Source: Deltaproteobacteria bacterium (GTDB lineage Bacteria; Desulfobacterota; Deferrimicrobia; Deferrimicrobiales; Deferrimicrobiaceae). Taken from it: a DNA stretch of 64,000 nucleotides. This document shows, piece by piece, positions 40,781-57,782 of the stretch; positions within the stretch are counted from its first letter, which is position 1, and each line of letters begins with the position of its first letter. A program made the translations under genes and the position numbers. The DNA lies in the NCBI GenBank assembly GCA_021815305.1, contig JAKAHC010000001.1, positions 62,001 to 126,000 of the forward strand, written 5' to 3'. The notes under the pieces were generated by a model. That model had not been told where the DNA came from. It did not search any database and saw only the letters and a list, made by a program, of their open reading frames with translations.

Positions 40781-41986
40781 TTACAGCGATAGCCGGTAAG
40801 GCTCCTCCAGGATCCGCCTGATCGCGTCCAGGAAAGCCGCCGCGGGTGCGCCGTCGATGGCGCGATGATCGAAGACGAGGCTCAGCGGCAACACGGGAAG
40901 GACCTCCACCTTCCCGTCCCGCGCCACGGGTTTCCGGACCGCCCGGCCGACGCCCAGTATGGCTACCTGCGGCGCGTTGATCACCGGCATGAAGAAAGCG
41001 ATGTTGTGGCCCCCGAGGTTCGAGACGGTGAAGGTCGCCCCTTCCAGGTCCGTAAGCGCCAGGGAGCCGCTGCGGGCCCTGGACGCGAGCGCGCCGACCC
41101 CGGACGCGATCTCGATCAGGCCCATCCGGTCGGCATGTTTGAGCACCGGGACCGCCAGGCCCTCTTCCAGCGAGACCGCCACGCCGATATGGATCTCCCC
41201 TTCGAAGCGCCGGATCACGCCTCCCAGCCAGTGGGCGTTCACCCCCGGATGCGCCCTCAACGCGATCCCGGCGGCCTTGATGATGAGCGGCAGGTAGCCG
41301 GTCTTCCCTTCGGCATTCTTCCGGAATTCCGGATCGAGTTGCGCCAGCAGTTCCTCGGCGCGCTCCATGACGGCTTCCGTCGTGAGCAGCACGGGCACCG
41401 TGCCGTGGAAGCTTTGCGACATGCGATCGGCGATCACCTTCCGGATCCCCGTCACGGGCACGTCGCGGAACGCGGCGACCGGCGCTGCAGCCGCGGGGGC
41501 CGGGGGAACCTCCCGCGCGGCTTCCACGTCGCGGGCATGGATCCGACCGCTCGCCCCGGTCCCCCGCAGGGAAGCCAGGTCGATTCCGTAGGCGCGGGCG
41601 CGGGAGCGCGCCGCAGGGGTGGCCCGGACCCTCCCTGCGGGCCCGTTGGAGATCCCGGGCGCGGTCGGTGCCGGGGCCGGACCGGAAGCGTCCGCAACGC
41701 CGGAAGAGGCGAAAGCCGCGGAGGTCCCGGCAACGGGCACCTTCTCGCCGGCACGCCCCACCCAGGCCAGTGGGGTCCCCACCGGAACCTGTTTCCCCTC
41801 GGGAACGACGACGGACAGCAACACCCCTTCCGCGTCGCTTGGGACCACTACGGTCACCTTGTCGGTTTCGATCTCGACGATCGGTTCCTCCCTGGCGACC
41901 GGATCTCCGACGCGCTTCAGCCACTTGAGGACCGTGCCCTCTTCCATGGTCACGCCCATCCGGGGCATTGCGATTTCGAACGCCAT
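40781..41986 (-). CDS. Dihydrolipoamide acyltransferase (E2) of a 2-oxoacid/acetoin dehydrogenase
   Basis: E2 carries acyl groups on lipoyl-lysine and hands them to CoA. The 401-residue protein has one lipoyl domain (IVEIETDKVTVVV, Lys near 43), an Ala/Pro linker, a peripheral-subunit-binding domain (ATPAARSRARAYGIDLAS with GTGASGRI) and the catalytic domain with VSNLGGHNIAFFMPVINAP and FDHRAIDGAPAAAFL (HxxxDG). It is the last gene of the operon after E1-alpha and E1-beta. A single lipoyl domain is usual for acetoin and branched-chain complexes. No E3 gene accompanies it. Confidence 0.9.
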   Translation of the reverse strand: MAFEIAMPRMGVTMEEGTVLKWLKRVGDPVAREEPIVEIETDKVTVVVPSDAEGVLLSVVVPEGKQVPVGTPLAWVGRAGEKVPVAGTSAAFASSGVADASGPAPAPTAPGISNGPAGRVRATPAARSRARAYGIDLASLRGTGASGRIHARDVEAAREVPPAPAAAAPVAAFRDVPVTGIRKVIADRMSQSFHGTVPVLLTTEAVMERAEELLAQLDPEFRKNAEGKTGYLPLIIKAAGIALRAHPGVNAHWLGGVIRRFEGEIHIGVAVSLEEGLAVPVLKHADRMGLIEIASGVGALASRARSGSLALTDLEGATFTVSNLGGHNIAFFMPVINAPQVAILGVGRAVRKPVARDGKVEVLPVLPLSLVFDHRAIDGAPAAAFLDAIRRILEEPYRLSL

Positions 41987-42000
41987 GCCGATCCCTCCCC

Positions 42001-42978
42001 CTACGCGAGGACCGCCTTGCAGGCGGCGATGATCTTCTGTTCGTCGGGCAGAAAGAGGTCCTCGAGGAACTTGCTGAAGGGGACGGGGACCTCGGCGCCC
42101 GCCACCCGCCGTATGGGAGCGTCCAGGTAGTCGAAGGCTTCGCTCTCCGCGACGATCGCCGCGACCTCGGCTCCGAACCCGAACCGCTTGACCGCTTCGT
42201 GGACGGTCACGAGACGCCCGGTCTTCTTGACGGAGGCGATGATGGCCTCCCTGTCCAGCGGCCAGAGCGTCCGGGGATCGAGCACCTCCGCGTCGATCCC
42301 CTCCTTCGACAGCTTCTCCGCCGCGCCCAGGGCGATGGTGACCTGCCTGCCGGTGGCCACCACCGTGACGTCCCCGCCCGCGCGCTTGATCTCCGCCGCT
42401 CCGAGCGGGATGGTGTACTCTCCCTCGGGGACGGGACCTTTCTGGGAGTACAGGTGCTTGTTCTCCAGGAAGATGATCAGGTTGTCTTCCCGGATCGCGC
42501 TCTTCAGCAGCCCCTTGGCGTCCGCGGGCGTCGAGGGCATGACCACCTTCAGACCCGGCACATGGCAGAGCCAGGCCTCCAGGCTTTGGGAATGCTGCCC
42601 GGCGTTCGCGCGCCCCGCCCCGAAAGGCATCCGGAGGACCATGGGCACCCTGGCCTTCCCGCCGAACATGTATTTGACCTTGGCCCCCTGGTTCACCACC
42701 TGGTCCATGGCGATGGTGATGAAATCCGTATACATGAGCTCGGCCACGGGGCGCGCCCCCACCAGGGCGGCTCCGACAGCCGCGCCGGCGATGGCCGCTT
42801 CCGAGATCGGGGTGTTGCGCACGCGTTCCGGCCCGAAGCGCTGGAATATCCCCTTGGTCACCGCGAATGCGCCCCCGTGGAGACCGATATCCTCTCCGAT
42901 CAGGAAGACCCGCGGGTCGCGCTCCATTTCCTCCACCAACGCCTCGTTGACCGCCTGCGACAACGTCAGTTCCTTCAT
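42001..42978 (-). CDS. Thiamine-diphosphate-dependent dehydrogenase E1 beta subunit
   Basis: The beta subunit completes the E1 active site that decarboxylates a 2-oxoacid or cleaves acetoin. The 325-residue sequence has [16 protein letters not shown] near the N terminus, [38 protein letters not shown], and the C-terminal transketolase domain with [13 protein letters not shown] and [18 protein letters not shown]. It matches the AcoB/PdhB-type heterotetramer E1 family throughout. It lies 14 bp after E1-alpha and 14 bp before E2, so the three are co-transcribed. Sequence alone does not separate acetoin, pyruvate and branched-chain substrates. Confidence 0.92.
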
Positions 42979-42992
42979 GGAAGGATTCCCCC

Positions 42993-43955
42993 CTACTCTG
43001 AATACACGTCGGTGAAGAGTTCGGAAGGATCGGGGTCCGGCGAAGACTGGGCGAAGGCGACCCCCTCGTCCAGCTTGCGGGCGATCTCCCCGTGGATCCC
43101 GTCCAGTTCCGCCTCCGTGGCGAGTCCCTCCCCGACCATCTGCTTCCGCAGGCGGAGGATCGGATCCTTCGCTTTCCAGTCCTCGACCTCCTCCCTGGTG
43201 CGGTAGACGACCGGATCGCCGATGTAGTGGCCCTCGAAACGGTAGGTATCCATCACGAGAAGCGACGGCCCCTTTCCGGCGCGGGCGCGCCCGACCGCGT
43301 CCGAGGTTACCCGGAAGACCTCGCGCGCATCCATTCCGTCGACCCTTGTGCCGGGCATGTCGTAGGCGATCGCCCGTTTCGCCAGATCGGGTTGCGACGA
43401 AGCCTCGGACAAGGGGGTCGTCATGCCGAACTGGTTGTTCTCGCACACAAAGACCACCGGGAGTTTCCACAGGGCCGCCAGGTTCAACGTCTCGTGGAAC
43501 ACCCCCTGGTTGGCGGCCCCGTCCCCGAAAAACGCGGCGACCACGTTTTGCAACCCGAGTTGACGTATCCCCAGGGCGGCCCCGGCGGCGATGGGAATGC
43601 CGCCGCCGACGATCCCGTTCGCCCCGAGATGCCCCAGGTCGAGGTCCGCGATGTGCATGGAACCGCCCTTGCCCTTGCAGTAGCCGGTCGCCTTGCCCAG
43701 CAACTCGGCGATCATCAGGTCCATGCGGGCGCCCTTGGCGATCGCGTGGCCGTGTCCCCGGTGCGTGCTGGTTATGTAATCGCCGGGCGAAAGCGCGGCG
43801 CAGACGCCCGCCGCCACCGCCTCCTGCCCGATGCAGAAGTGGACGGACCCCCGCAACACGCCCTTCCTCGAAAGTTCCTGGAGCTTCGTTTCGAAGGAAC
43901 GGATGGAAACCATGGTTTCGTAGATCCTGCGATCCGGCGCACCCGCTGTTTTCAT
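42993..43955 (-). CDS. Thiamine-diphosphate-dependent dehydrogenase E1 alpha subunit
   Basis: E1 alpha binds ThDP and the substrate. The 320-residue protein shows [57 protein letters not shown], and the ThDP motif [20 protein letters not shown] to ENNQFGMTT, typical of the AcoA/PdhA heterotetramer class. The phosphorylation-loop region ([14 protein letters not shown]) is of the bacterial type. The ATG at 43955 is preceded by a purine-rich GGGGGATGAGGG. It follows the SDR gene by 29 bp. Near an AcoR-like activator it is most likely acetoin dehydrogenase, but a 2-oxoacid substrate is equally possible in principle. Confidence 0.9.
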
Positions 43956-43984
43956 TCCCTCATCCCCCGCGGTTCGTGTTGGAG

Positions 43985-44737
43985 CTAAACCAGCAACCTC
44001 CCGCCGTCGACGTCCAGGATCGCGCCGGTCATGTACCGGGAACCTTCCGAAGCGACGAACAGGACGACGTCGGCTATATCCTCCGGCGCGCCGTAGCGCC
44101 CCATCGGGATAAGCCGGACGGCATCGTCCCGGACCTTCTCCGGAAGGTGCAGCATGAACTCCGTCTCGGTCGATCCCGGGCAGACCGCGTTGACCGTGAT
44201 CCCCTCGGGAGCGAGTTCCCGCGCCAGGTGCCGGGTAAGCCCCAGCAGACCTGCCTTGGAGGCGGTGTAATCCGGTCCCATGAAGACGCTGGTGGACCGC
44301 CCCGCCAGGGAGGAGATGTTGATGATACGGCCGCCCGGCGCCCTCCGGCGCATGTGCGGAAGCACGGCCCTGGCGAGGAGGAAGGGCCCTTTCAGGTTCA
44401 CGGCGAGCACCTTGTCCCACTGCGCCTCCGTCACGTCGAGCACGGAGGAGGACGCCTTGGCGTGCCCGGCGTTGTTCACCAGGATGTCGATCCCGCCCAA
44501 GGCCTCCGCGGCCGCACCCACCGCCTTCTCCACCTGGGCCGCATCCGCCACGTCGGCGGTCACGGCGACGGCTCGTCGCCCCAGGGCCCGCGCCTCGTCC
44601 GCCACCGCGGCCGCCGACAGACGGGAGAGATCCAGCACCGCCACGTCGGCCCCCGCCCCTGCGAACGCGAGCGCGACGGCCCGGCCGATCCCCGCTCCGC
44701 CGCCCGTTACGAGGCCGATCTTTCCGTTCAGTTCCAT
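43985..44737 (-). CDS. SDR-family NAD(P)-dependent oxidoreductase
   Basis: A 250-residue classical short-chain dehydrogenase. TGGGAGIGRAVA is the nucleotide loop, NNAGHAK the NNAG motif, ISSLAGRS the catalytic Ser, and YTASKAG the YxxxK pair; VNAVCPGSTETEF follows as usual. Asp at the end of the second strand (VLDLSR) favours NAD(H) over NADP(H). In this operon it may act as a diacetyl/acetoin reductase or oxidise another hydroxy-ketone made by the zinc dehydrogenase upstream; the family is too broad to say more. GGGGGAGG stands before the ATG. Confidence 0.88.
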   Translation of the reverse strand: MELNGKIGLVTGGGAGIGRAVALAFAGAGADVAVLDLSRLSAAAVADEARALGRRAVAVTADVADAAQVEKAVGAAAEALGGIDILVNNAGHAKASSSVLDVTEAQWDKVLAVNLKGPFLLARAVLPHMRRRAPGGRIINISSLAGRSTSVFMGPDYTASKAGLLGLTRHLARELAPEGITVNAVCPGSTETEFMLHLPEKVRDDAVRLIPMGRYGAPEDIADVVLFVASEGSRYMTGAILDVDGGRLLV

Positions 44738-44741
44738 CGCC

Positions 44742-45782
44742 TCAGCCTCCCCCGGGAAGCAGAAGCACCTTCCCGGCGTCCCCGCCGCGCGACAACGCGA
44801 ATCCGCGTTCGAATTCCGAAAGCGGCAGCCGATGCGTCAGCACGGGTCCGAAATCCGCCCTTCCGGAGGCCACCAACCCCTCCAGCATCGCCCACGTCCG
44901 CCACATGTGCCGTCCGTGAATCCCCAGGATCGTCGCTTCCTTGAAGACGATGTCCCGCGTCACGTCCAGGGAGACTTCGGCGCCGGGAAGACCCAGCAAC
45001 ACCACCCGCCCCCCCTTGCGCAGGTAACCGAACGAGGACCGGAGCGCCTCGCCCGCGCCGGACACCTCGAGGATCACGTCGACGCCGCGGGCATGCGTCG
45101 CATCCGAAATGGCCTTGACCGGGTCGACCTCTCCGGGCCGGATCAGGATCGTGGCTCCGACGTTCTCCGCCAGCGCGAGGCGTCCCGGGGCGACATCCAG
45201 GGCGAAGATGCGCGCGGCCCCGAAGATGCGGGCGAACAGGACCGCGAACAGGCCGATCGGACCGCAGCCGACCACGGCCACGTCCGCTCCCGCCACACCG
45301 CCGCGCTCCACACCGTGCAACGCCACCCCCGCCGGCTCGAACGCCGCTGCGGTTTCCAGCGGAATCTCCCCGGGGATGCGACGGGCCACGGCCGCGGGCA
45401 CCGCGGCGTACTCGGCGAAGCACCCGTCCGTGTGCAGCCCGAAGATCCTGAGATCCGCGCAGATATGCTGGTCGCCCGTCCTGCACTGGTAGCACCTGCC
45501 GCAGGGGATGTGGGTCTCCACCGAGACGTGGTCGCCCACCGCCAGGTCGGTCACTCCGGCTCCCAGCGCGACGATTTCGCCGCTGCACTCGTGCCCGATG
45601 ACGCCCGGGACCTTCAGGCCGGCTCCCTGCGCCCAGGCGTTCCATTCGTGGATATGGCTGTCGGTCCCGCAGATCGCGGCGGCGGCGACCCGGACCAGGA
45701 CCTCCCTGCGTCCCGGTTCGGGGCGTTCGGTCGTGCACAGGGAGGCCCCCGGTCCCCGTTGGAGTTTCATTACCGCCAGCAT
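44742..45782 (-). CDS. Zinc-dependent medium-chain alcohol dehydrogenase (Tdh/butanediol-dehydrogenase-like)
   Basis: A 346-residue MDR-superfamily enzyme. Catalytic zinc ligands are Cys in AAICGTDSH and His-Glu in IGHECSGE; the structural-zinc cysteines form CGRCYQCRTGDQHIC. The Rossmann loop is VVGCGPIGLFAV, with Asp in ALDVAPGR pointing to NAD. It resembles threonine 3-dehydrogenase and (R,R)-butanediol or sorbitol dehydrogenases. The ATG at 45782 has GGAGACGGC upstream. It follows the TRAP permease gene and precedes the SDR gene with a 4-bp gap. 2,3-Butanediol oxidation to acetoin would fit the downstream dehydrogenase, but this is inference. Confidence 0.88.
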   Translation of the reverse strand: MLAVMKLQRGPGASLCTTERPEPGRREVLVRVAAAAICGTDSHIHEWNAWAQGAGLKVPGVIGHECSGEIVALGAGVTDLAVGDHVSVETHIPCGRCYQCRTGDQHICADLRIFGLHTDGCFAEYAAVPAAVARRIPGEIPLETAAAFEPAGVALHGVERGGVAGADVAVVGCGPIGLFAVLFARIFGAARIFALDVAPGRLALAENVGATILIRPGEVDPVKAISDATHARGVDVILEVSGAGEALRSSFGYLRKGGRVVLLGLPGAEVSLDVTRDIVFKEATILGIHGRHMWRTWAMLEGLVASGRADFGPVLTHRLPLSEFERGFALSRGGDAGKVLLLPGGG

Positions 45783-45808: not shown

Positions 45809-47113
45809 CTATGCCCCCCGCATCTTCGCGGCGAGACGGGGGATGAACAGCGACATGTCCGGCCACGCGCTGATCAGGATCAGGGCGACGACCGCGGCGA
45901 TGATGAAGGGAACCACGTACCTGAGGATGTTTTTCAAGGGAACTCCCGCGAGGTTGCAGGCGACATACAGGTTGACGCCCACCGGCGGCGTGAAGAGGCC
46001 GATGGCCAGGTTGACGGACATGATGACGCCGAAGTGGACGAGGTTGACCCCCATTTCCTTGGCCACGGGCAGGAAGATCGGGAGGGAGATGTAGAAGATC
46101 GAGATCGCATCGAGGAAGCAGCCGGCGATCAGGAGCAGGACGTTGACGGAAACGAGGAACGCCAGCTTCGTTTTCGAGATCGAAAGGAGCAGCGTGCTGG
46201 CCTTCATGGCGATCCCCTTGGCGATGACGACCCAGGCGAAGAGGCCCGCCGCCCCCACTACGAACATGACCACGGCGGAGGACGTTCCCGCGTCGATGGC
46301 GATCTCCCAAACCCGCTTCAGGGTGACCGTCTTGTATACGAAGATGCCCACGAGGAGGCCGTATACGCAGATCACTCCGGCCGCCTCCTCCGGCGTGAAG
46401 AAACCTCCGTAGATGCCCACCAGGAGGACAACGGGCGCCATGAGGCCCCAGACCGCCTCCTTGAAAGCCGCCCAGATCTCTCCGGGAGTGCCGCGCCGCT
46501 CCCCCTTGTGGCCGTGCTTCTTGCCGTACATCCAGGCATAGACCCCCATCACCAGGCCCAGCATCAGGCCCGGAACGATGCCGGCCAGGAACATGTCGGC
46601 GATGGAAACCTCCGCCAGCACACCGTAGACGATGAACGCGATCGACGGGGGGATGATGATCGCGATGGAGCCGGCGCTGGCGATGATGCCGGCGGCGAAA
46701 TTCCTGTCGTATCCCCGTCGTGCCATGGCCGGGATCAGGATGGCGCCAAGAGCCGCGACGTCGGCGGGACCGGACCCGGAGATGCCTGCGAAGATGACTC
46801 CCACGACCACGGTGACCAGCGCGAGGCTGCCGTACACCGGGCCGATGACCAGGCTGGAGAGACGGATCAGCCGGTCCGATATGCCGCACCGGTCCAGCGT
46901 GATCCCCGCAAAGACGAAAAGAGGGATGGACAGCAGGCTGAACTTCTCCGTTGCGGCGTACATCATGGTGGAGATCATGCCCAGGGGCATTCCGGTGAGC
47001 AGGAGAGTGATGATCGCCGAGGCGCCGAGCGAGACGGCGATGGGGACGTTCAGGAACAGGAGGACGAAGAAGACGAGAAACAGGAAAGCGGCCGCCATGC
47101 CGGTCGTGATCAT
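45809..47113 (-). CDS. dctM: TRAP transporter large permease subunit (DctM)
   Basis: DctM is the 12-span subunit of tripartite ATP-independent periplasmic transporters and carries the sodium-coupled substrate path. The 434-residue product has LNVPIAVSLGASAI, SLLSIPLFVFAG, GISGSGPADVAALGAILIP (signature loop), AGIIASAGSIAIIIPPSIAF and the C-terminal NLAIGLFTPPVGVNLYVAC, all family marks. It overlaps dctQ by four bases (ATGA). With dctP and dctQ it makes a complete uptake system for a small organic acid or related substrate. Confidence 0.95.
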   Translation of the reverse strand: MITTGMAAAFLFLVFFVLLFLNVPIAVSLGASAIITLLLTGMPLGMISTMMYAATEKFSLLSIPLFVFAGITLDRCGISDRLIRLSSLVIGPVYGSLALVTVVVGVIFAGISGSGPADVAALGAILIPAMARRGYDRNFAAGIIASAGSIAIIIPPSIAFIVYGVLAEVSIADMFLAGIVPGLMLGLVMGVYAWMYGKKHGHKGERRGTPGEIWAAFKEAVWGLMAPVVLLVGIYGGFFTPEEAAGVICVYGLLVGIFVYKTVTLKRVWEIAIDAGTSSAVVMFVVGAAGLFAWVVIAKGIAMKASTLLLSISKTKLAFLVSVNVLLLIAGCFLDAISIFYISLPIFLPVAKEMGVNLVHFGVIMSVNLAIGLFTPPVGVNLYVACNLAGVPLKNILRYVVPFIIAAVVALILISAWPDMSLFIPRLAAKMRGA

Positions 47114-47598
47114 GCCGTTTTCTCCTCTGCCTTGTCTCCGAAAAAGTCATCGTAGGCGTTCTCGAGGAAACGGATGAGGGTCAGCAGGACGGAAAGGGGC
47201 ACGACCGCGCTGAAAGGCCACGCGGGAAGACCCAGGGAAGGCGTTGTCTGGCCGGTGTTGTACTCCTGGAGGGCCATCTTGACGCCGAAGTAACCGAGAA
47301 ATCCAAGAAAGAAGAGTACGGCGGCGAGCGCCGCCAGGGAGACGTAACGACGGCCTTTCGCCGGCAAGACATCCACCAGGAGGGAGAGACCCAGGTGCGC
47401 CCTGCGCTTGGTGGCCATCGGGATGCCCAGGAACGTGATCCAGACGAACATCAGCAGCATGACCTCTTCCGCCTCGCCCGTCCGTACGCCGATCCCGCGC
47501 GTAACGATGGACACGAAGTCGATGAGGACCACGACGAGGATCGCCGAAGCCACCAGCGCCTCTTCAAGGTAGTCGAGTGCGTTGAGAATCTTTCGCAT
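47110..47598 (-). CDS. dctQ: TRAP transporter small permease subunit (DctQ)
   Basis: DctQ is the four-span partner of DctM. The 162-residue protein has spans near 13-33, 48-65, 88-108 and 128-148, the GEAEEVMLLMFVWITFLG segment and RRAHLGLSLLVDVLP, both typical of the family. GGGAGG stands three bases before the ATG at 47598. A 42-bp perfect palindrome lies 61 bp upstream in the gap after dctP, so dctQ expression is probably lower than that of dctP. Confidence 0.93.
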   Translation of the reverse strand: MRKILNALDYLEEALVASAILVVVLIDFVSIVTRGIGVRTGEAEEVMLLMFVWITFLGIPMATKRRAHLGLSLLVDVLPAKGRRYVSLAALAAVLFFLGFLGYFGVKMALQEYNTGQTTPSLGLPAWPFSAVVPLSVLLTLIRFLENAYDDFFGDKAEEKTA

Positions 47599-47710: not shown

Positions 47711-48724
47711 TCACTTCGATAGGTTCTGGAACTTCTGGAGGAGGTCGGCGCCGAGGATCGGCCTGTACTCATTGTAGACCGGGGCCACCGCGGCCTTGAA
47801 CTTCGCCAGGTCCGCCTTGGTGGGGGTGTAGACCGCCACTCCGTTGTCCTTGATGATCTTGAGGTTCGAAACGTCCCTGTCACGGTTCAGCTTGACCTGG
47901 AACGCCGCCGCTTCCCTGATGGACTTGACGACGATATCCCGCAGTTCCGGTTCCCAGCTCTGGAAGTTGGCGGTATTGACGCCGTAGATCAGGGCGTCAT
48001 ACGAGTAGTTCCAGAGGGTCATGTATTTCTGGACCTCGTAGAGCTTGGAGGAGGCGATGATGTCCAGCGGGTTCTCCTGGCCGTCCACGACCTTCTGCTG
48101 CAGGGCGCCGAAAACCTCGCCGAAGTTCATGGACAGGGGGTTCGCTCCCAGCGCCTTCCAGGCCGAGATGTACATCTTGATTCCCGGGATACGGATCTTC
48201 AGGCCCCTGATATCCTCCGGCGTACGGATCTCCCGCTTGGAGTTGGTCACCTGGCGGAAACCGTTCTCGCCCAGGGCCAGGCCGGTGATGCCCTTCGGCT
48301 TGGCCAGGGACAGGATCTCCTCTCCCAGGGGGCCGTTGCGGAACTTGTCCACCTGCGCGTAGCTGGAGAACAGGAACGGCATGGAGACGACGGTGAACTT
48401 CTGCTCCAGGCCGGTGTAAAAAATCGTCGAGGTGACGGTGAAGTCGATGGCGCCGTTCTGGAGCATCTCCAGTTCCTTGATCTGGTTGCCCGAGGCGAGC
48501 TGGCTGTTCGGGAAGACGGAGACCTTGACCGCGCCCCCGGTCCGCTGCGCGACGAGCTCCGCGAACTTCCTGGCGGAGATCGTCCATGTGGAGGTGTCGG
48601 AGGAGGTCACGCCCATCCGGAGTTCACGGGGCTTGAACCTCTGAGGAGCTGCAGCGGAGACCGAGACGGTCAGGCAGATCATGAGCAGTGCGGCGGCCAC
48701 GACGGAAAAGAGAGACTTTTTCAC
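47711..48724 (-). CDS. dctP: TRAP transporter substrate-binding protein (DctP)
   Basis: DctP is the periplasmic ligand-binding subunit. The 337-residue precursor has a signal peptide (two Lys, hydrophobic core, SVSAAAP cleavage region) and the DctP-fold motifs VFPNSQLASGNQIKELEMLQNG, split across the ligand lobe, and LRGLKIRIPG, whose Arg normally holds the substrate carboxylate, then ALGANPLSMNFGEVFGALQQKVVDGQENP. The GTG start at 48724 has AGGAGG eight bases upstream. Conservation of the Arg suggests an acidic ligand. A TATAAT-like box overlaps the preceding stop and could add an internal promoter. Confidence 0.93.
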   Translation of the reverse strand: MKKSLFSVVAAALLMICLTVSVSAAAPQRFKPRELRMGVTSSDTSTWTISARKFAELVAQRTGGAVKVSVFPNSQLASGNQIKELEMLQNGAIDFTVTSTIFYTGLEQKFTVVSMPFLFSSYAQVDKFRNGPLGEEILSLAKPKGITGLALGENGFRQVTNSKREIRTPEDIRGLKIRIPGIKMYISAWKALGANPLSMNFGEVFGALQQKVVDGQENPLDIIASSKLYEVQKYMTLWNYSYDALIYGVNTANFQSWEPELRDIVVKSIREAAAFQVKLNRDRDVSNLKIIKDNGVAVYTPTKADLAKFKAAVAPVYNEYRPILGADLLQKFQNLSK

Positions 48725-48763: not shown

Positions 48764-48769
48764 ATTATA
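48764..48769 (-). promoter_or_regulatory. Possible internal -10 box ahead of dctP
   Basis: TATAAT on the minus strand overlaps the stop codon of the second PCC gene and lies 40 bases before the dctP start. No good -35 is present at the right distance, so this is weak. Confidence 0.25.
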
Positions 48770-49205
48770 AGTGCAATCCCCCGGTTCGGGCACGGGATGA
48801 TCCGGTGTCCTCGGCGGGTTCCGGCAGCCACTCTTCGAGCGTCACCTCGAAGGTAACGCAGATCGGGTTCAGGCCCGACACGAACGGACCGCCGTACACG
48901 TTTCCTTCCGGGTCGGCGACCACGCCGGAGAGCGAGGCGCTCGGCGTCCCGTTCGCGTCGGAACGCACCTCGCCCGCAAGGCTCACGATTTCGACTGCGG
49001 GGCCCTTGACTTCGATCACGCCCCCGTCGCTTGCCTCCAGGCTCGCATCGACGAGGCTTCCCAGTGCCCCCCGCACGAACGCGTTGTTGAACCCCTTGGC
49101 CAGGCAGAGTTTTTCGATTCCGATCACGAGGTCTTCATTGGGGGCGATGCGCGCATAGGCGACGCGCCCCATCCTCCCGTTTTCCACGTACCGGAAATCA
49201 CCCAT
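48765..49205 (-). CDS. PCC/DUF296-domain protein B (histidine motif lost)
   Basis: A 146-residue protein matching the PPC/PCC (DUF296) fold, known from plant AT-hook proteins and free-standing bacterial trimers whose role is unclear. The order ARIAPNEDLVIGIEKLCLAK, FVRGALGSLVDASLE, GPAVEIVSLAGEV and VVADPEGNVYGGPF fits the domain. Where the family has HxH before and GGH after this last segment, this copy has SASLSG and GGP, so the presumed metal histidines are missing. The ATG at 49205 lies within the end of the upstream PCC gene (8-bp overlap). Both are in the sigma-54 operon; they may form a hetero-oligomer. Confidence 0.82.
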   Translation of the reverse strand: MGDFRYVENGRMGRVAYARIAPNEDLVIGIEKLCLAKGFNNAFVRGALGSLVDASLEASDGGVIEVKGPAVEIVSLAGEVRSDANGTPSASLSGVVADPEGNVYGGPFVSGLNPICVTFEVTLEEWLPEPAEDTGSSRARTGGLHL

Positions 49206-49734
49206 GGGATTCCTCCCCGTAAGGCTGCAGCAGCGAGACGTGGGTTTCCTCGTCGTAGGCCTGGCGCAGCTCGATCCCCACGATGGAGGTGACCAGCACG
49301 GAAATCGGCTTGCTGCCCACAATGGATTGTTCGGTGATGATGTGCCCTCCCTTCACTTCCCCGCGCTCCGTCCGGATCACCGCATGGCAGTGGACCAGGG
49401 GCTCTCCCTCGACGGTCCTCCCCAGCGTCGCATTGCCGAAAATCATGTAGGCGCGACCTGCATCGATCGGTTTGGAATAGGCGATCACGGCGCGCTTCTC
49501 CGGATCCGGAGGCGCCACGCAATAATACATTTTCTCGAAAGCCCCGCGGAGGATGGTCGTGGAGGCATCGCGGATATTGCGCTCCGCCAGGGGTTTGACC
49601 ATCGCGTCGAACAAGGTTTCCCCCGGCTTGAGGGACAAACGGATATGGATCCCGTAAGTGGCCGACCCGGCCTTGATCCGTACCGGGTTGAACGGCCCCG
49701 GGTGGCGAAGCAGGCGAGGTCTTTTCGTCGTCAT
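49198..49734 (-). CDS. PCC/DUF296-domain protein A (histidine motif intact)
   Basis: The first gene of the sigma-54 operon encodes a 178-residue PCC/DUF296 protein. The core reads LSLKPGETLFDAMVKPLAE, ILRGAFEKMYY, then PLVHCHAVIRTERG and KGGHIITEQSIVG; the HxH and GGH histidines form the family's likely metal or ligand site. The N-terminal Arg-rich stretch (TTKRPRLLRHPG) precedes it. I use ATG 49734, 28 bases after the predicted transcript start; frames further upstream lie before the promoter. Function of free-standing PCC proteins is unknown; position at the head of a catabolic operon suggests an enzymatic or ligand-sensing role rather than general DNA binding. Confidence 0.82.
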   Translation of the reverse strand: MTTKRPRLLRHPGPFNPVRIKAGSATYGIHIRLSLKPGETLFDAMVKPLAERNIRDASTTILRGAFEKMYYCVAPPDPEKRAVIAYSKPIDAGRAYMIFGNATLGRTVEGEPLVHCHAVIRTERGEVKGGHIITEQSIVGSKPISVLVTSIVGIELRQAYDEETHVSLLQPYGEESHG

Positions 49735-49772: not shown

Positions 49773-49789
49773 AGCAAGTGCCATGCCGG
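49773..49789 (-). promoter_or_regulatory. Sigma-54 (-24/-12) promoter of the PCC-TRAP-dehydrogenase operon
   Basis: The minus strand reads CCGGCATGGCACTTGCT, matching 15 of 17 positions of YTGGCACGRNNNTTGCW, including the invariant GG and GC ten bases apart. The start site would be near 49762, 28 bases before the first PCC gene. The neighbouring regulator has the GAFTGA loop that contacts sigma-54. Confidence 0.75.
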
Positions 49790-49963: not shown

Positions 49964-51931
49964 CTACAGTCCGAACCTGCGGATCTTGCCGTACAGGGTG
50001 TTTCGGCTTATCTTCAGGACCCTCGCCGCCCTGGTGATGTTTCCTCCGGCCGCCTCCATGGCTTTGGCGACGGCCATCTTCTCGATTTCCTTCAGCGACG
50101 CTTTGCCCTGGCCCAGGGCCACTTGCGTCTCCCCGGGTTTCCAGAGCGTCTTGGGCAGGTACTCCACGTCGATGAAATCCCCATGGCTGACGTTCAACGC
50201 GCGCTCCAAAACGTTTTCCAATTCGCGGACATTGCCGGGCCAGGAATGCACCCGAAACCGCTCCATCACCGCAGAGGTCACTCCCAGGGCCGCCTTGCCC
50301 AACTTGCGGTTGAGCTTGTCGATGATATGGCTCACCAGGAGGGGAAGGTCGTCCAGCCATTCCCGCAGGGGGACCATCGTTATCCATAAAACGTTCAACC
50401 GGTAGTAAAGGTCCCGGCGGAAATGCCCTTCTTCCACCTCGAACTGCAGATCCCTGTGGGTCGCCGCAAGCACCCGCACATTGACATCGATGTAATTCGA
50501 TCCTCCCACTCTCAAGACCTTCCGGTCCTGAAGCACCCTCAACAGCTTGACCTGCATGTCGGGAGGCATATCCCCGATCTCGTCCAGGAAGATCGTGCCC
50601 CCGTTGGCCAGCTCGAACTTCCCCGGTCGTCCTCCACGCCGGGCACCCGTGAACGCACCCTCCTCATGGCCGAACAGGTCGCTCTCGATCAGTTCCCTGG
50701 GGATGGCGCCGCAATTGACGGCGACGAACGGGCCTTCCCGCCGGTTGCTCCCGTTGTGGATCGCCTGGGCCAGGATCTCCTTGCCGGTTCCGCTCTCCCC
50801 CTGGATCAGAACGGTGGAAGAACTGGCGGCGGCGGCCCTGGCCAGGCGCAGGACGTCCTGGATCTTGGGGTTCCGGCCGACGAAGTCGTCGAAGGTGAAG
50901 TTGGCCTGGGACCCGATCATCTGGTTGACCATCTGCCGCACCCGTTTCGCCTCGCGGAACGCGTCCACCACGCCCACGATCTCCCCGTTTTCCTCCCGGA
51001 TGGGCACCGCGGTCTGGATGAAATGCAGGACTCCCCTGCCGCTCTTGTGGAAAAACTCCTTGTCCGCATACCCCTTTCCGCTGGCAAGGACATCGGTAAT
51101 CGTGGCGCGGTAGTCCACCACATCCTGGATGTGACGGCCGATCACATCCCTGTGGTCGATCCCGATCATGCGGGCACCGGCCGCGTTCAGGTAAGTGATG
51201 CATCCCCGCTTGTCGATGGTGAGCAATCCGTCGGATATGGATTCCACGATCGCCGCCTGGTACTTGTACGCGGTCTTCAACTCCCGGGCAGCCCGGTTCA
51301 TCGCCATCTGGTTTTCTATGGCGGTGACCGCCGCCACGACCATCCCGAGGGTGTGGCAATGGACGAGATCCGTGCTCCCGGACATGTCGAGCACGCCCGC
51401 GACCCTTCCGTCCGGATCCCGGATCGGGGCCGCGGAGCATGTCCAGGCGAGGAGATCCTTGCAGTAATGCTCCAGCGCATGGATCTGGAGGGGCGTTCCC
51501 TCCGCGAGAGCCGTCCCGATCGCGGTGTTCCCGGCGTATTCCTCTTTCCAGATCGCCCCCGGCGCATGGTATGCGGCGGCCCGCTCGTCGGCGTTCTCCG
51601 TGCCGATCACCTTCAGGATGCAGGTGTCCGGATCCGCCAGCAACACGACGAAGCCCGAGTCCCGCACGAATCCGTAAAGGCTTTCCATGAACGGAGCGGC
51701 GGCCTTCAGGAGGAAATCGTATCTTTCGAGACGGGCCTTGAGTTCGTCGCCGGAAACCCTGTCGGGACACTGGCCGGAGCGGGGATCCACCCCCAGTTTC
51801 CTGCACCGTTCCCACGAACGGGCGATCACCGGGCGGAGCTTTCCGGACGGAACCGTTCCGGACCGGAGGAGAATCTCGTGGGCCTGGCGCAGGTTCTGGT
51901 CCGCCGTCGGGAAAAACAGGGAAGAATCCAT
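49964..51931 (-). CDS. Sigma-54-dependent transcriptional activator, AcoR-like (GAF-PAS-AAA+-Fis)
   Basis: A 655-residue enhancer-binding protein. The N terminus (VIARSWERCRKLGVDP, 35-50) and the GAF-like region to about 205 are those of AcoR/YfaA-type sensors; a PAS domain follows (about 225-330). The AAA+ domain has Walker A GESGTGKE (378), GAFTGA (425-430, sigma-54 contact) and Walker B GTIFLDEIGD (445), with the R-fingers in FRRDLYYRLNVL. A Fis-type HTH ends the protein (GGNITRAARVLKISRNTLYG). AcoR of other bacteria responds to acetoin. It lies immediately upstream of the operon it probably controls. A weak AGAGGT precedes the ATG. Confidence 0.93.
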   Translation of the reverse strand: MDSSLFFPTADQNLRQAHEILLRSGTVPSGKLRPVIARSWERCRKLGVDPRSGQCPDRVSGDELKARLERYDFLLKAAAPFMESLYGFVRDSGFVVLLADPDTCILKVIGTENADERAAAYHAPGAIWKEEYAGNTAIGTALAEGTPLQIHALEHYCKDLLAWTCSAAPIRDPDGRVAGVLDMSGSTDLVHCHTLGMVVAAVTAIENQMAMNRAARELKTAYKYQAAIVESISDGLLTIDKRGCITYLNAAGARMIGIDHRDVIGRHIQDVVDYRATITDVLASGKGYADKEFFHKSGRGVLHFIQTAVPIREENGEIVGVVDAFREAKRVRQMVNQMIGSQANFTFDDFVGRNPKIQDVLRLARAAAASSSTVLIQGESGTGKEILAQAIHNGSNRREGPFVAVNCGAIPRELIESDLFGHEEGAFTGARRGGRPGKFELANGGTIFLDEIGDMPPDMQVKLLRVLQDRKVLRVGGSNYIDVNVRVLAATHRDLQFEVEEGHFRRDLYYRLNVLWITMVPLREWLDDLPLLVSHIIDKLNRKLGKAALGVTSAVMERFRVHSWPGNVRELENVLERALNVSHGDFIDVEYLPKTLWKPGETQVALGQGKASLKEIEKMAVAKAMEAAGGNITRAARVLKISRNTLYGKIRRFGL

Positions 51932-52314: not shown

Positions 52315-52602
52315 CTAATTGAACGACTGGTCTTTCGGCTCCATCGGCCGCACGCCGCCGAACTTGCTTTCATACTTCTGCAAATTGTTCCCCAACGCCT
52401 CGATGATGCGTTGCATGTGTCCGGGACTCACGATGATGCGGGAGACCATGTGCGTGCCGGTCGGCGAATTGAGGAACCAGTCGATCATGAACTCCTCGCC
52501 GCTGTGGCTCACGAGCATGTTGTTGCTGTAGCGCCCCCTCGAAATCTCATCCCCGGCGATGACCTGGATCTGCTGCGCTTCCTTCGGCTTCTCGCTCGAC
52601 AT
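52315..52602 (-). CDS. DUF3467-family small protein
   Basis: A 95-residue protein of the DUF3467 family: IQVIAGDEISRGRYSNNMLVSHS, then EEFMIDWFLNSPTGTHMVSRII and VSPGHMQRIIEALGNNLQKYE close to a C-terminal FGG. (The pieces are contiguous apart from the breaks.) The family is widespread in bacteria, about 100 residues, and of unknown function. I begin at ATG 52602 (SSEKPKEAQQ); an upstream ATG at 52635 adds eleven unlike residues. It lies between the MaoC gene and the activator, in the same direction. Confidence 0.8.
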   Translation of the reverse strand: MSSEKPKEAQQIQVIAGDEISRGRYSNNMLVSHSGEEFMIDWFLNSPTGTHMVSRIIVSPGHMQRIIEALGNNLQKYESKFGGVRPMEPKDQSFN

Positions 52603-52656
52603 GGCGATCGGCGCTCCCTCTCCGCAAAGGTTCATTGGGACTCGGGACGATGCCCG

Positions 52657-53139
52657 TTATGCCGGCATCTCCCGGCACCGATACATGCCCATCGCGAGAA
52701 GGGTCATGACGGTCTCCCGGCGCTGGTTCATCGCCTCGATGAAAAATACCACGACTCCCCGGTCCGGCTTGGTTCGGGAACGCCTGGCCTCCCGGACGGT
52801 TACCCGGATCGAGAGCTCGTCCCCCGGCCTCACCGGTTTGATCCACCGCAATTCATCCACGCCCGGAGACCCCATGCTCGCCACGCTCGATATGACGTTG
52901 TCCACCAGGAGACGCATCATCAGGGCGGCGGTGTGCCAGCCGCTCGCGACGAGACCTCCGAAGTGGCTCTTTTTCGCCGCTTCCGGATCGATGTGGAAGG
53001 TCTGCGGATCGTAAAGCTTCGCGAAAGCGATCACACTCTGTTCCGTGACCGCGATCGAGCCGAACTCATGGACCGATCCGGTAACATAATCCTCGAAATA
53101 CCGGTCCTCTCGCGATAGGGCAAACGGGGATGGTTCCAT
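52657..53139 (-). CDS. MaoC-like hot-dog dehydratase
   Basis: A 160-residue single hot-dog-fold protein of the MaoC/enoyl-CoA hydratase 2 type. It has YFEDYVTGSVHEFGSIAVTE at the start, AKLYDPQTFHIDPEAAKKS (the catalytic D-x-x-x-x-H region) and FGGLVASGWHTAALMMRL, the hydratase signature. It probably hydrates a 2-enoyl-CoA or related thioester. It is 28 bp after arfB and before DUF3467. Whether it belongs functionally with the sigma-54 operon further downstream is unknown. Confidence 0.88.
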   Translation of the reverse strand: MEPSPFALSREDRYFEDYVTGSVHEFGSIAVTEQSVIAFAKLYDPQTFHIDPEAAKKSHFGGLVASGWHTAALMMRLLVDNVISSVASMGSPGVDELRWIKPVRPGDELSIRVTVREARRSRTKPDRGVVVFFIEAMNQRRETVMTLLAMGMYRCREMPA

Positions 53140-55078: not shown

Positions 55079-56335
55079 TCATCCCTGCCCCGAGACCACC
55101 ACGCGGTTCTTTCCCTTGCGTTTCGCGTCGTACATCGCCTCGTCCGCGGTCCGTATCAGCGTTTCCACATCCTTCCCGTGCTCCGGGTAAGAGGAAACCC
55201 CGATGCTCACCGTGACCGTCCGGCCCTCCAACGGGGTCGACTCGATCCTATGGCGGATCCTTTCCGCAACGATGGTCGCCCCGCGGGTCTCGATGCTTGT
55301 CCGCAGACGTTCCGCCACCTTTTCCCCCTGGACCTGGGCCGCCTCGGGAAGGATGACGGCAAACTCCTCTCCGCCGTAGCGGCAGGCGATATCCACCTCG
55401 TAGGAAGGCTTTGCGTCGCTCCGGCGGATGGCCCCCCGGATGACGTCGGACAACCCCTTCAGCAAGGCATCCCCTCCGAGGTGCCCGTACTTGTCGTTGA
55501 ACGACTTGAAATCGTCCACGTCCAGGATGAGAAGGGAGAAGGTGCGGCCGTACCGGTGCGCCCGCTGGATCTCCGAGTTCAGACGGTGGAAGAAATACCT
55601 GCGGTTGTAGAAGGAAGTCAGACTGTCCTTCGTGACCAGATCCAGCATCTCCGCTTCCCGCCGCCGCACGATGTTCATCATGTGCGCGCCGACGAAGGCA
55701 ACGCAGAAGTTCACGATGGAAACCCAGGCCCACTTGATCATCTCGTAGGAGTAGTTTTGCTGCAGTTCGTTCTTCTCGAAGGGCATCGGGACCGACGGGA
55801 TGAGTCTATAGTACTCGACGGTGAGCACCCCCCCGTAGGCCAGCATCCCCGCCAAGGCGATCGCGTACGTGTCCGACGCCTTGTCCATTATGAGGGCCGA
55901 CTCGAGAGTAAGGATCAGGTACATCGCCCAGAACCAGGAAACGGCCCCGCCGCTGAAATGGACCAGGATGGTGACGAATACAAGATCGAACAGGATCTGC
56001 GCCTTGTTCAGGTCCCGGATGCGGCCGAACAACTCGTAGGTGTACTGGTACCAGGCGTTGTACGCGACGGCGAAGAGGAAGGCCCCCACGGACACGGCCT
56101 GGTGGAGCCGCGTAACGCCCAACGCCTCCGCCGCCCCATGACGAAAAAAGAAATAGGCGTAGACGGCGTAAATCGCCAGGATGGCGAGGATTACCCACCG
56201 GGCGTGGATGACCATACCCACCCGGTTGCGCGCTTCCTTTCGCCATTCCAGTTCTTCGGTGGCCGGAACCTCCGGGGAACCCCATCCGCATTTCGTCAAC
56301 AGGTCGTCTAAGGTTTTCAATATCCTCCCTTCCAT
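55079..56335 (-). CDS. Membrane diguanylate cyclase (GGEEF) with displaced I-site
   Basis: A 418-residue c-di-GMP synthase. After a cytoplasmic N terminus, about six membrane spans (roughly 45-225) form a MASE-like sensor. The GGDEF domain has DSLTSFYNRRYF, LDVDDFKSFND and the active-site GGEEF at 321-325. The inhibitory-site RxxD (304-307) is 13 residues before GGEEF instead of five, because of an eight-residue insert. A second insert of about 16 residues near 345-360 repeats an AER-R-type helix. The active-site loop itself is intact, so synthesis is likely. Confidence 0.9.
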   Translation of the reverse strand: MEGRILKTLDDLLTKCGWGSPEVPATEELEWRKEARNRVGMVIHARWVILAILAIYAVYAYFFFRHGAAEALGVTRLHQAVSVGAFLFAVAYNAWYQYTYELFGRIRDLNKAQILFDLVFVTILVHFSGGAVSWFWAMYLILTLESALIMDKASDTYAIALAGMLAYGGVLTVEYYRLIPSVPMPFEKNELQQNYSYEMIKWAWVSIVNFCVAFVGAHMMNIVRRREAEMLDLVTKDSLTSFYNRRYFFHRLNSEIQRAHRYGRTFSLLILDVDDFKSFNDKYGHLGGDALLKGLSDVIRGAIRRSDAKPSYEVDIACRYGGEEFAVILPEAAQVQGEKVAERLRTSIETRGATIVAERIRHRIESTPLEGRTVTVSIGVSSYPEHGKDVETLIRTADEAMYDAKRKGKNRVVVSGQG

Positions 56336-56348
56336 CCTCGTGCGCTCC

Positions 56349-57782
56349 TCAGATCCGCATCCCGATGACGCCTCCGCGGCCCCGGCGCTTCGATTCGTAC
56401 ATCAGGCGGTCGGCGATGTTGAGAATCTGCCCGCGGTCCGGAGAGTCGGGCGCGCATGCCGCGTACCCTACGCTGGCGGTGAAAGAGATCACGCTCTCCT
56501 TGTCGGCGTCCAGCCGCACGTTCGAAATCCCTTCCGCGATGCGACCCGCGATCACCGCGGCCGCGGACAGGTCGGTCTCCGGCAGGATCACGGAGAACTC
56601 GTCTCCCCCGTAGCGCGCGGCGATGTCGGTCTTCCGGAGGTGCGCGCCCAGCGCGCCGGCCACGAGCGTAAGGACGCGATCCCCCGTCGTGTGTCCGTAG
56701 GTGTCGTTGATCTCCTTGAAATCATCCAGGTCCAGCATGATGACGGACATCGGGCGTCCATACCGGATCGCCCGCTCCAGCTCGATCCCGAGCTTTTCGT
56801 GGAACGCCCCGTGGTTGTACAGCAGCGTCAGCGAGTCCTTCTCCGACAGGGATTTGACGAAACCGAACAACTCGGCGTTTTCGATGGCGATGGCGATGTA
56901 GGACGCCAGCACCCGCATGGTGGGCAGCAACTCCGGCTCGAACGCGTTGGGATCCGGGTGGTTGAGCAGCAGGACCCCGATGTTTTTCCCCTTGGACACC
57001 AGGGGCACGCACAGAAACGACCGCACATCCTTGCGGCGGCCGCCGTAGAACTGGAAATCGGGGGAAGTCTTCACGTCGGGGATCCATGCCGGCTCCCCCG
57101 TGGCGAAGACTTTCCCGGCGATTCCTTCGCCCGGAGACAGCATGAAGGGGACGGCATCTTCTCCCGGGCTCCCCGAGGCGGTCCTTGCGACCAACATCTT
57201 CTTCTCGCGGGAATAGAGCATGATGCAGAAGTCGTGCAATCCCAGTTTCCGCATCACCCGCTCGGGAAGAATGCTGTACAGCTCGTCGGGATCCAGGGTG
57301 CCGGTGAGGACGGTCGCCACCTCGGCGATCGTGCGCAGGTACTGCACGCTGGATTCCAGGTTCGATCTCGTCTCCTCGAGGGCGCGCCGGAGACGCTCCA
57401 CCTGGTCGAGCCGCTCTTCCCTGTCCCTCACCGCCTCCCGAAGCGTTGCGACGGTGCGATCCATCCTTTCGGAGATCGCCTCCGCCAGCGGGGCGAGCGG
57501 CCCGGCGGCAGGGGGGAGACTTCCCGCGTCTTCCTCCGCCACGGCCTCCCTCAGTCGGGCGATGGGACGAAATACCTTTCTCTCCAGAAGCAGGTAGCCT
57601 GCGGCCGCCAGCACGGTCTCCCCCGCCGCCGCGCCGGCCAGCGCCGCCTGCAGGGTACCGCCGGCGAGAAAGGAGGAGCCCAGCGTGACTGCGAAAAGGG
57701 CGCCCCAGGCGAAGACAAGGGCCGCGCGCCATCCGGGCCCATCCGGCTTCGTCCCTACGGGTTTGCGGAGATCCTCATGCAT
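56349..57782 (-). CDS. GAF-GGDEF diguanylate cyclase, membrane-anchored
   Basis: A 477-residue c-di-GMP synthase. Two N-terminal spans (about 18-40 and 45-66) are followed by a short HAMP-like/coiled-coil segment (about 72-148), a GAF domain (about 155-305, LSPGEGIAGKVFATGEPAWI) and a GGDEF domain with DSLTLLYNHGAFH, LDLDDFKEIND, I-site RKTD (383-386) and GGDEF (392-396) at the standard spacing. It should be an active, product-inhibited cyclase. The ATG at 57782 has no clear Shine-Dalgarno. It stands directly upstream of the other GGDEF gene. Confidence 0.92.
   Translation of the reverse strand: MHEDLRKPVGTKPDGPGWRAALVFAWGALFAVTLGSSFLAGGTLQAALAGAAAGETVLAAAGYLLLERKVFRPIARLREAVAEEDAGSLPPAAGPLAPLAEAISERMDRTVATLREAVRDREERLDQVERLRRALEETRSNLESSVQYLRTIAEVATVLTGTLDPDELYSILPERVMRKLGLHDFCIMLYSREKKMLVARTASGSPGEDAVPFMLSPGEGIAGKVFATGEPAWIPDVKTSPDFQFYGGRRKDVRSFLCVPLVSKGKNIGVLLLNHPDPNAFEPELLPTMRVLASYIAIAIENAELFGFVKSLSEKDSLTLLYNHGAFHEKLGIELERAIRYGRPMSVIMLDLDDFKEINDTYGHTTGDRVLTLVAGALGAHLRKTDIAARYGGDEFSVILPETDLSAAAVIAGRIAEGISNVRLDADKESVISFTASVGYAACAPDSPDRGQILNIADRLMYESKRRGRGGVIGMRI

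Follow-up and report, generated by a model that had tools for sequence, protein, structure and literature searches.

Overlapping genes for two diverged PCC/DUF296 proteins, only one of which carries the three-histidine site, in a TRAP-transporter operon

The closest described relatives of the gene pair reported here are free-standing bacterial and archaeal proteins of Pfam family PF03479 (AF0104, 2h6l; PH0802, 2dt4; 3hwu; 3htn; 2hx0; 2p6y), which are encoded by single genes and were reported to form trimers (PMC4209074). The same work, a study of plant AHL proteins, described one single-domain PPC gene per prokaryote and proposed that AHL proteins, which combine an AT-hook with a PPC domain, form homo- or hetero-trimers via the latter (PMC4209074). 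In the literature searched we found no report of an enzyme activity or any other function for a prokaryotic PCC/DUF296 protein. The PCC proteins presumably belong to the same structural superfamily (SCOP d.290) as acetolactate decarboxylase and PTD012. Alpha-acetolactate decarboxylase (4bt2, 6inc, 5xne) has a histidine metal site, and we know of no site-less partner subunit for it. PTD012/C11orf54 (DUF1907), whose Pfam family differs from PCC, offers a three-histidine metal site together with a plausible chemistry: it binds Zn on three His, is structurally related to acetolactate decarboxylase and, after a long time under an ester hydrolase annotation, has lately been assigned the function of a 3-dehydro-L-gulonate decarboxylase (PMC12435205). 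PTD012 itself gave no direct match to the proteins studied here.

The locus studied here lies in a window of 64,000 nucleotides, the whole stretch of DNA that was analysed and to which all coordinates refer. It comprises PCC-A (49198-49734, minus strand), a subunit of 178 aa with a three-histidine site and a C-terminal D-x-E-T strand, and PCC-B (48765-49205, minus strand), a histidine-less subunit of 146 aa. The stop codon of A and the start codon of B share 8 bp (ATGGGTGA, 49198-49205, minus strand), and the same 8 bp are found at 43 of 80 related loci. Both proteins pass the PF03479 gathering cut-off of 25 bits (PCC-A 33.2, PCC-B 56), and the family was matched by all 58 A rows and all 58 B rows (E ≤ 0.01); the two overlapping PCC/DUF296 genes of the initial annotation are therefore real members of the family. 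They share fold and Pfam family with the free-standing proteins, but constitute two diverged subunits, one of them site-less, that are coupled or fused instead of a single trimer-forming gene product. No SSU rRNA was detected in the assembly; the rpoB of the window genome shares 55-57% identity with alpha-, beta- and gammaproteobacterial sequences, which share 59-67% with one another, and this points to a lineage outside Pseudomonadota or branching deeply next to them. No PCC proteins other than PCC-A and PCC-B were found in the 2.77-Mb genome of the window. Most matching relatives in the same family possess a single, higher-scoring PCC gene, and no other adjacent pair of PCC hits was listed among 158 sampled relatives. 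This free-standing gene is absent from the window genome, which has the A/B pair only. The PCC-B of the window also has a C-terminal tail of ∼15 residues (48765-48820) that is missing in most homologues.

The two subunits differ at the positions of the putative metal site. In PCC-A, H115-C116-H117 (49384-49392, minus strand) forms the HxH part, with both histidines present in 81/81 split A proteins and 21/21 fused proteins, and G129-G130-H131 (49342-49350, minus strand) provides the third histidine, conserved in 81/81 and aligned with the GGH of 2dt4, 2h6l, 2p6y and 2hx0. Profile alignments place the motifs of the solved PCC proteins on those of A (VHAH..GGH in 2dt4, CHIH..GGH in 2h6l, CHLH..GGH in 2p6y, HLH..GGH in 2hx0). 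By profile alignment to PCC proteins in the PDB, PCC-B has S91-L92-S93 (48927-48935, minus strand) at the HxH positions, where none of 81 homologues has a histidine, and G105-G106-P107 (48885-48893, minus strand) at the GGH position, where P is found in 64/81 and otherwise A, L, V, T or F, but never H. The complete HxH...GGH triad is thus present in 81/81 A homologues and 0/81 B homologues, so that the initial annotation was right in setting HCH and GGH in PCC-A against serines and a proline in PCC-B. The alignment by which it would have been refuted, with histidines not conserved in free-standing bacterial PCC proteins, was not obtained: 29 of 30 such proteins from the phylum of the window, taken as the best-scoring family hits and not as a random sample, have HxH...GH, the remaining one retains HxH, and the solved bacterial and archaeal PCC structures keep HxH...GGH. 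Besides the triad, H11, H30, C72, D161 and E163 are invariant among the 81 A proteins. The alignment further reveals that the C-terminal D-x-E-T strand, common to PCC-A and ordinary PCC proteins, is missing from PCC-B.

Scanning the B alignment over 84,980 genomes yielded 80 loci, which, where named, belong to Alpha-, Beta- and Gammaproteobacteria. PCC-A is located immediately upstream of PCC-B at all 80, and with mechanically chosen start codons the genes overlap at 67 loci, by exactly 8 bp at 43. A sequence artefact or a chance overlap is excluded by this 80/80 adjacency. Since the loci had been retrieved via B, co-occurrence was also checked in the converse direction, over 201 genomes belonging to one family: split A had strong matches in five, and split B had them in the same five, adjacent every time. 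Three weaker A matches in these 201 genomes sit in open frames of 295-344 codons, which is the length of fused proteins. Among plasmids, close A and close B matches came from the same organisms (19 records each). The distances of A and B are correlated (r 0.71; maximum of 500 shuffles, 0.18), with a contribution from shared genome ancestry. Shared regulation can be another cause of adjacency that is kept within operons.

Natural fusions connect the two subunits directly. Single proteins of 260-290 aa spanning A and B occur in Sinorhizobium, Phyllobacterium, Skermanella, Alloyangia, Terrarubrum and Chelatococcus, and fusions are also located on several plasmids. Their N-terminal half aligns with split A and has the three histidines in 21/21, while the C-terminal half aligns with split B and is without any conserved histidine. 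In a quick maximum-likelihood tree, in which several branches are long and deeper relations are not to be trusted, A grouped with the N-terminal halves (99) and B with the C-terminal halves (98), both apart from the free-standing proteins. At 21 of the 80 loci a fused protein is encoded in addition to the split pair; both forms lie within a few kb at L033, L034, L035, L040, L056, L078, L099, L104 and 13 other loci. Their presence in one cluster suggests two related steps or isozymes of one pathway. The genome of Acidocella facilis (G166, which contains locus L058) has five PCC matches, namely one separate gene, an A/B pair and a fused pair seen as two neighbouring matches within a single open frame, in contrast to the one PCC gene per prokaryote of the literature.

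The initial annotation regarded the pair as an intact and a degenerate copy, and this view has to be abandoned. PCC-B is an ancient subfamily. At a mean pairwise identity of 73%, against 57% for A, it is the better conserved of the two, and it has invariant residues of its own, many of them charged (R14, R19, E24, D25, R45, D53, E72, E79, R81, N113, E120, W126). BLASTP found no significant similarity between PCC-A and PCC-B, which together with the deep split in the tree rules out a recent duplication, while a pseudogene or decay of B is ruled out by its higher conservation. The histidine loss in B is not local decay. Because of its own invariant charged residues and its conservation above that of A, PCC-B may well have a share in ligand binding or in the active site, as judged from sequence.

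Structure prediction gave a model of PCC-A with pLDDT 88 (>90 over the core) and pTM 0.81, for which Foldseek ranked the solved PCC proteins first without exception (E 7e-10 to 4e-7, prob 1.0). The best match was 2h6l (7e-10), titled a metal-containing protein. For PCC-B the fold is given by profile matches to 2hx0, 2dt4 and 2h6l. A natural A-B fusion was modelled with pLDDT 94.9 and pTM 0.92, so a definite packing of the two halves is predicted; with this model Foldseek returned single-domain PCC matches only (E ≤ 1e-3), and therefore no solved two-domain template for the packing was found. The next family after the PCC proteins for A was acetolactate decarboxylase, at a remote level (E about 2e-3 to 1.4e-2, prob 0.9-1.0, TM 0.3-0.4). 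This enzyme is a larger single-chain protein, its histidine metal site has a putative counterpart in A, and no sequence match to it was obtained for A or B in Pfam, NCBIfam and PDB profile searches.

The gene pair opens a minus-strand run. A and B are followed by a TRAP transporter with solute-binding protein DctP (47711-48724), small permease DctQ (47110-47598) and large permease DctM (45809-47113), a Zn-dependent alcohol dehydrogenase (44742-45782) that is threonine-3-dehydrogenase-like (373 bits, below the equivalog cut-off), a short-chain dehydrogenase (SDR, 43985-44737) and a TPP-dependent dehydrogenase with E1 alpha (42993-43970), E1 beta (42001-42990) and the E2 dihydrolipoyl acyltransferase (40781-41986), all on the minus strand. 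The E1/E2 genes resemble acyloin-cleaving complexes. Upstream of A, on the same strand, lie a sigma-54-dependent activator (49964-51931; GAF-PAS-AAA-Fis, DhaR-like but under the cut-off of that model) and a sigma-54 (-24/-12)-like site (CGGCATGGCACTTGC, 49774-49788, 2 mismatches). The element is retained in a related genome (G013) within a largely diverged spacer, but such matches occur across the whole window at chance frequency, which makes the site weak evidence. A scan for sigma-70 promoters found nothing. Genes for a DUF3467 protein and a MaoC-like hydratase (52315-53139) are situated just upstream of the activator on the same strand, and two successive GGDEF (diguanylate cyclase) genes, of which the second also encodes a GAF domain, occupy 55079-57782.

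In a second bacterium (L052, 7463-16029), a single run comprises A, B, E1 alpha, E1 beta, E2, DctP, DctQ, DctM and an SDR; it matches the window operon, with E1 77-85% identical. Most proteobacterial clusters instead contain an acyl-CoA ligase (PRK07470-type, 69/80) and an SCP-x-type thiolase (PRK07516-type, 70/80), along with TRAP genes, SDRs and IclR. An uncharacterised carboxylate pathway is likely common to the ligase/thiolase clusters. For arylmalonate decarboxylase clusters, which also come with TRAP genes, no link was found in the text searched.

Pairing, fusion, residue pattern, fold and operon are computational observations, and on balance we consider them best explained if PCC-A and PCC-B are obligate partners, coupled in translation, that together form one hetero-oligomeric metalloenzyme of organic-acid catabolism. 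That A and B form a heteromer is very probable, and the restriction of the metal to A only slightly less so; an obligate heteromer with the metal ligands in A alone is an inference well supported by the 80/80 pairing, the histidine counts (81/81 vs 0/81) and the fusions. Hence, the initial proposal of a hetero-oligomer with one metal-liganding subunit is strongly favoured by the pairing, the 5/5 reciprocal occurrence, the fusions and the pTM of the fusion model, and only the word degenerate for B has to be dropped from it. PCC-A would provide the three-histidine metal site typical of ordinary PCC proteins, while PCC-B, an ancient sister domain from which the histidines and the C-terminal D-x-E-T strand would have disappeared, would complete the assembly and probably shape the substrate pocket, giving an A/B complex in place of the ordinary PCC homotrimer.

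The chemistry is a more tentative matter. A beta-keto acid could be decarboxylated or enolised with the help of the metal, much as in acetolactate decarboxylase and PTD012; since PTD012 is 3-dehydro-L-gulonate decarboxylase, both characterised groups act on beta-keto acids. In the window, a hydroxy acid taken up by the TRAP system would be oxidised by the Zn-dependent alcohol dehydrogenase and/or the SDR to a beta-keto acid (2-hydroxy-3-keto acid), which A/B would decarboxylate; the resulting alpha-hydroxyketone (acyloin) would be split by the E1/E2 complex to give an acyl-CoA. The operon contents and the remote fold likeness to acetolactate decarboxylase suggest a metal-dependent enzyme of the beta-keto-acid decarboxylase type. 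However, most clusters have the CoA ligase and the thiolase and not E1/E2, and a decarboxylation ending in an acyloin therefore does not explain all contexts. Because it fits the ligase/thiolase clusters less well than the window operon, a decarboxylase-type activity is a possibility that we hold with reserve. Slightly more doubtful still is the broader idea that PCC-A/PCC-B and the fusions form a family of heteromeric metal-dependent beta-keto-acid decarboxylases in which the site-less sister subunit is required.

The hetero-oligomer could also be an enzyme of another type, a hydrolase or lactonase, an isomerase or the catalyst of a CoA-ester-linked step. The long-standing label of PTD012 as an ester hydrolase (PMC12435205) and the predominance of CoA ligase and SCP-x-type thiolase among the neighbours (69-70/80 loci) speak for it, whereas both characterised fold relatives are beta-keto-acid decarboxylases; we regard it as a serious possibility, short of an even chance. 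It is improbable that A and B are two separate homo-oligomers acting in sequence in one pathway. Both are indeed conserved and co-transcription alone does not prove contact, but fusions of constant A-B order, the high-confidence model of the two fused halves and the strict co-occurrence are hardly reconciled with independent assemblies.

A role of A/B as DNA-binding regulator of their own operon would agree with the name 'PPC domain-containing DNA-binding protein' of homologues and with the function of PCC as oligomerisation domain in plant AHL transcription factors (PMC4209074). DNA binding by AHL proteins is, however, done by the AT-hook (PMC4209074), and neither A nor B matches any family other than PCC, both being without an AT-hook or second domain. 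No DNA-binding element is visible in B, and its public name (homologues at L018-L021) was probably inherited from the plant proteins. Moreover, unlike AHL proteins, A/B belong to a catabolic operon and have metal-site histidines in one subunit (HCH...GGH in A), and the clusters already contain regulators of sigma-54, IclR, LysR or AsnC type, which makes a regulatory function quite unlikely. Least credible of all is that B is a decaying duplicate kept by operon structure alone, with A as a lone homotrimer: the absence of the three histidines and of the C-terminal strand from B would fit, but B is better conserved than A, occurs in all loci, forms fusions with A in many lineages and is deeply split from it.

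In the literature searched, which covered few subscription papers, we found no two-subunit, half-sited PCC system that also occurs as natural fusions; the A/B pair is a novel form within a known fold family. Its two subunits have clearly specialised, whereas other members of the family are described as homotrimers. While databases label prokaryotic PCC/DUF296 proteins as DNA-binding, a strictly paired form in defined catabolic operons, in which one subunit has the metal site and the other does not and which also occurs as natural fusions, ties the family to metabolism; its function becomes testable through the TRAP-linked substrate, the metal and the A-B complex. If true, the decarboxylase reading would mean that bacterial DUF296 proteins have a role as enzymes.
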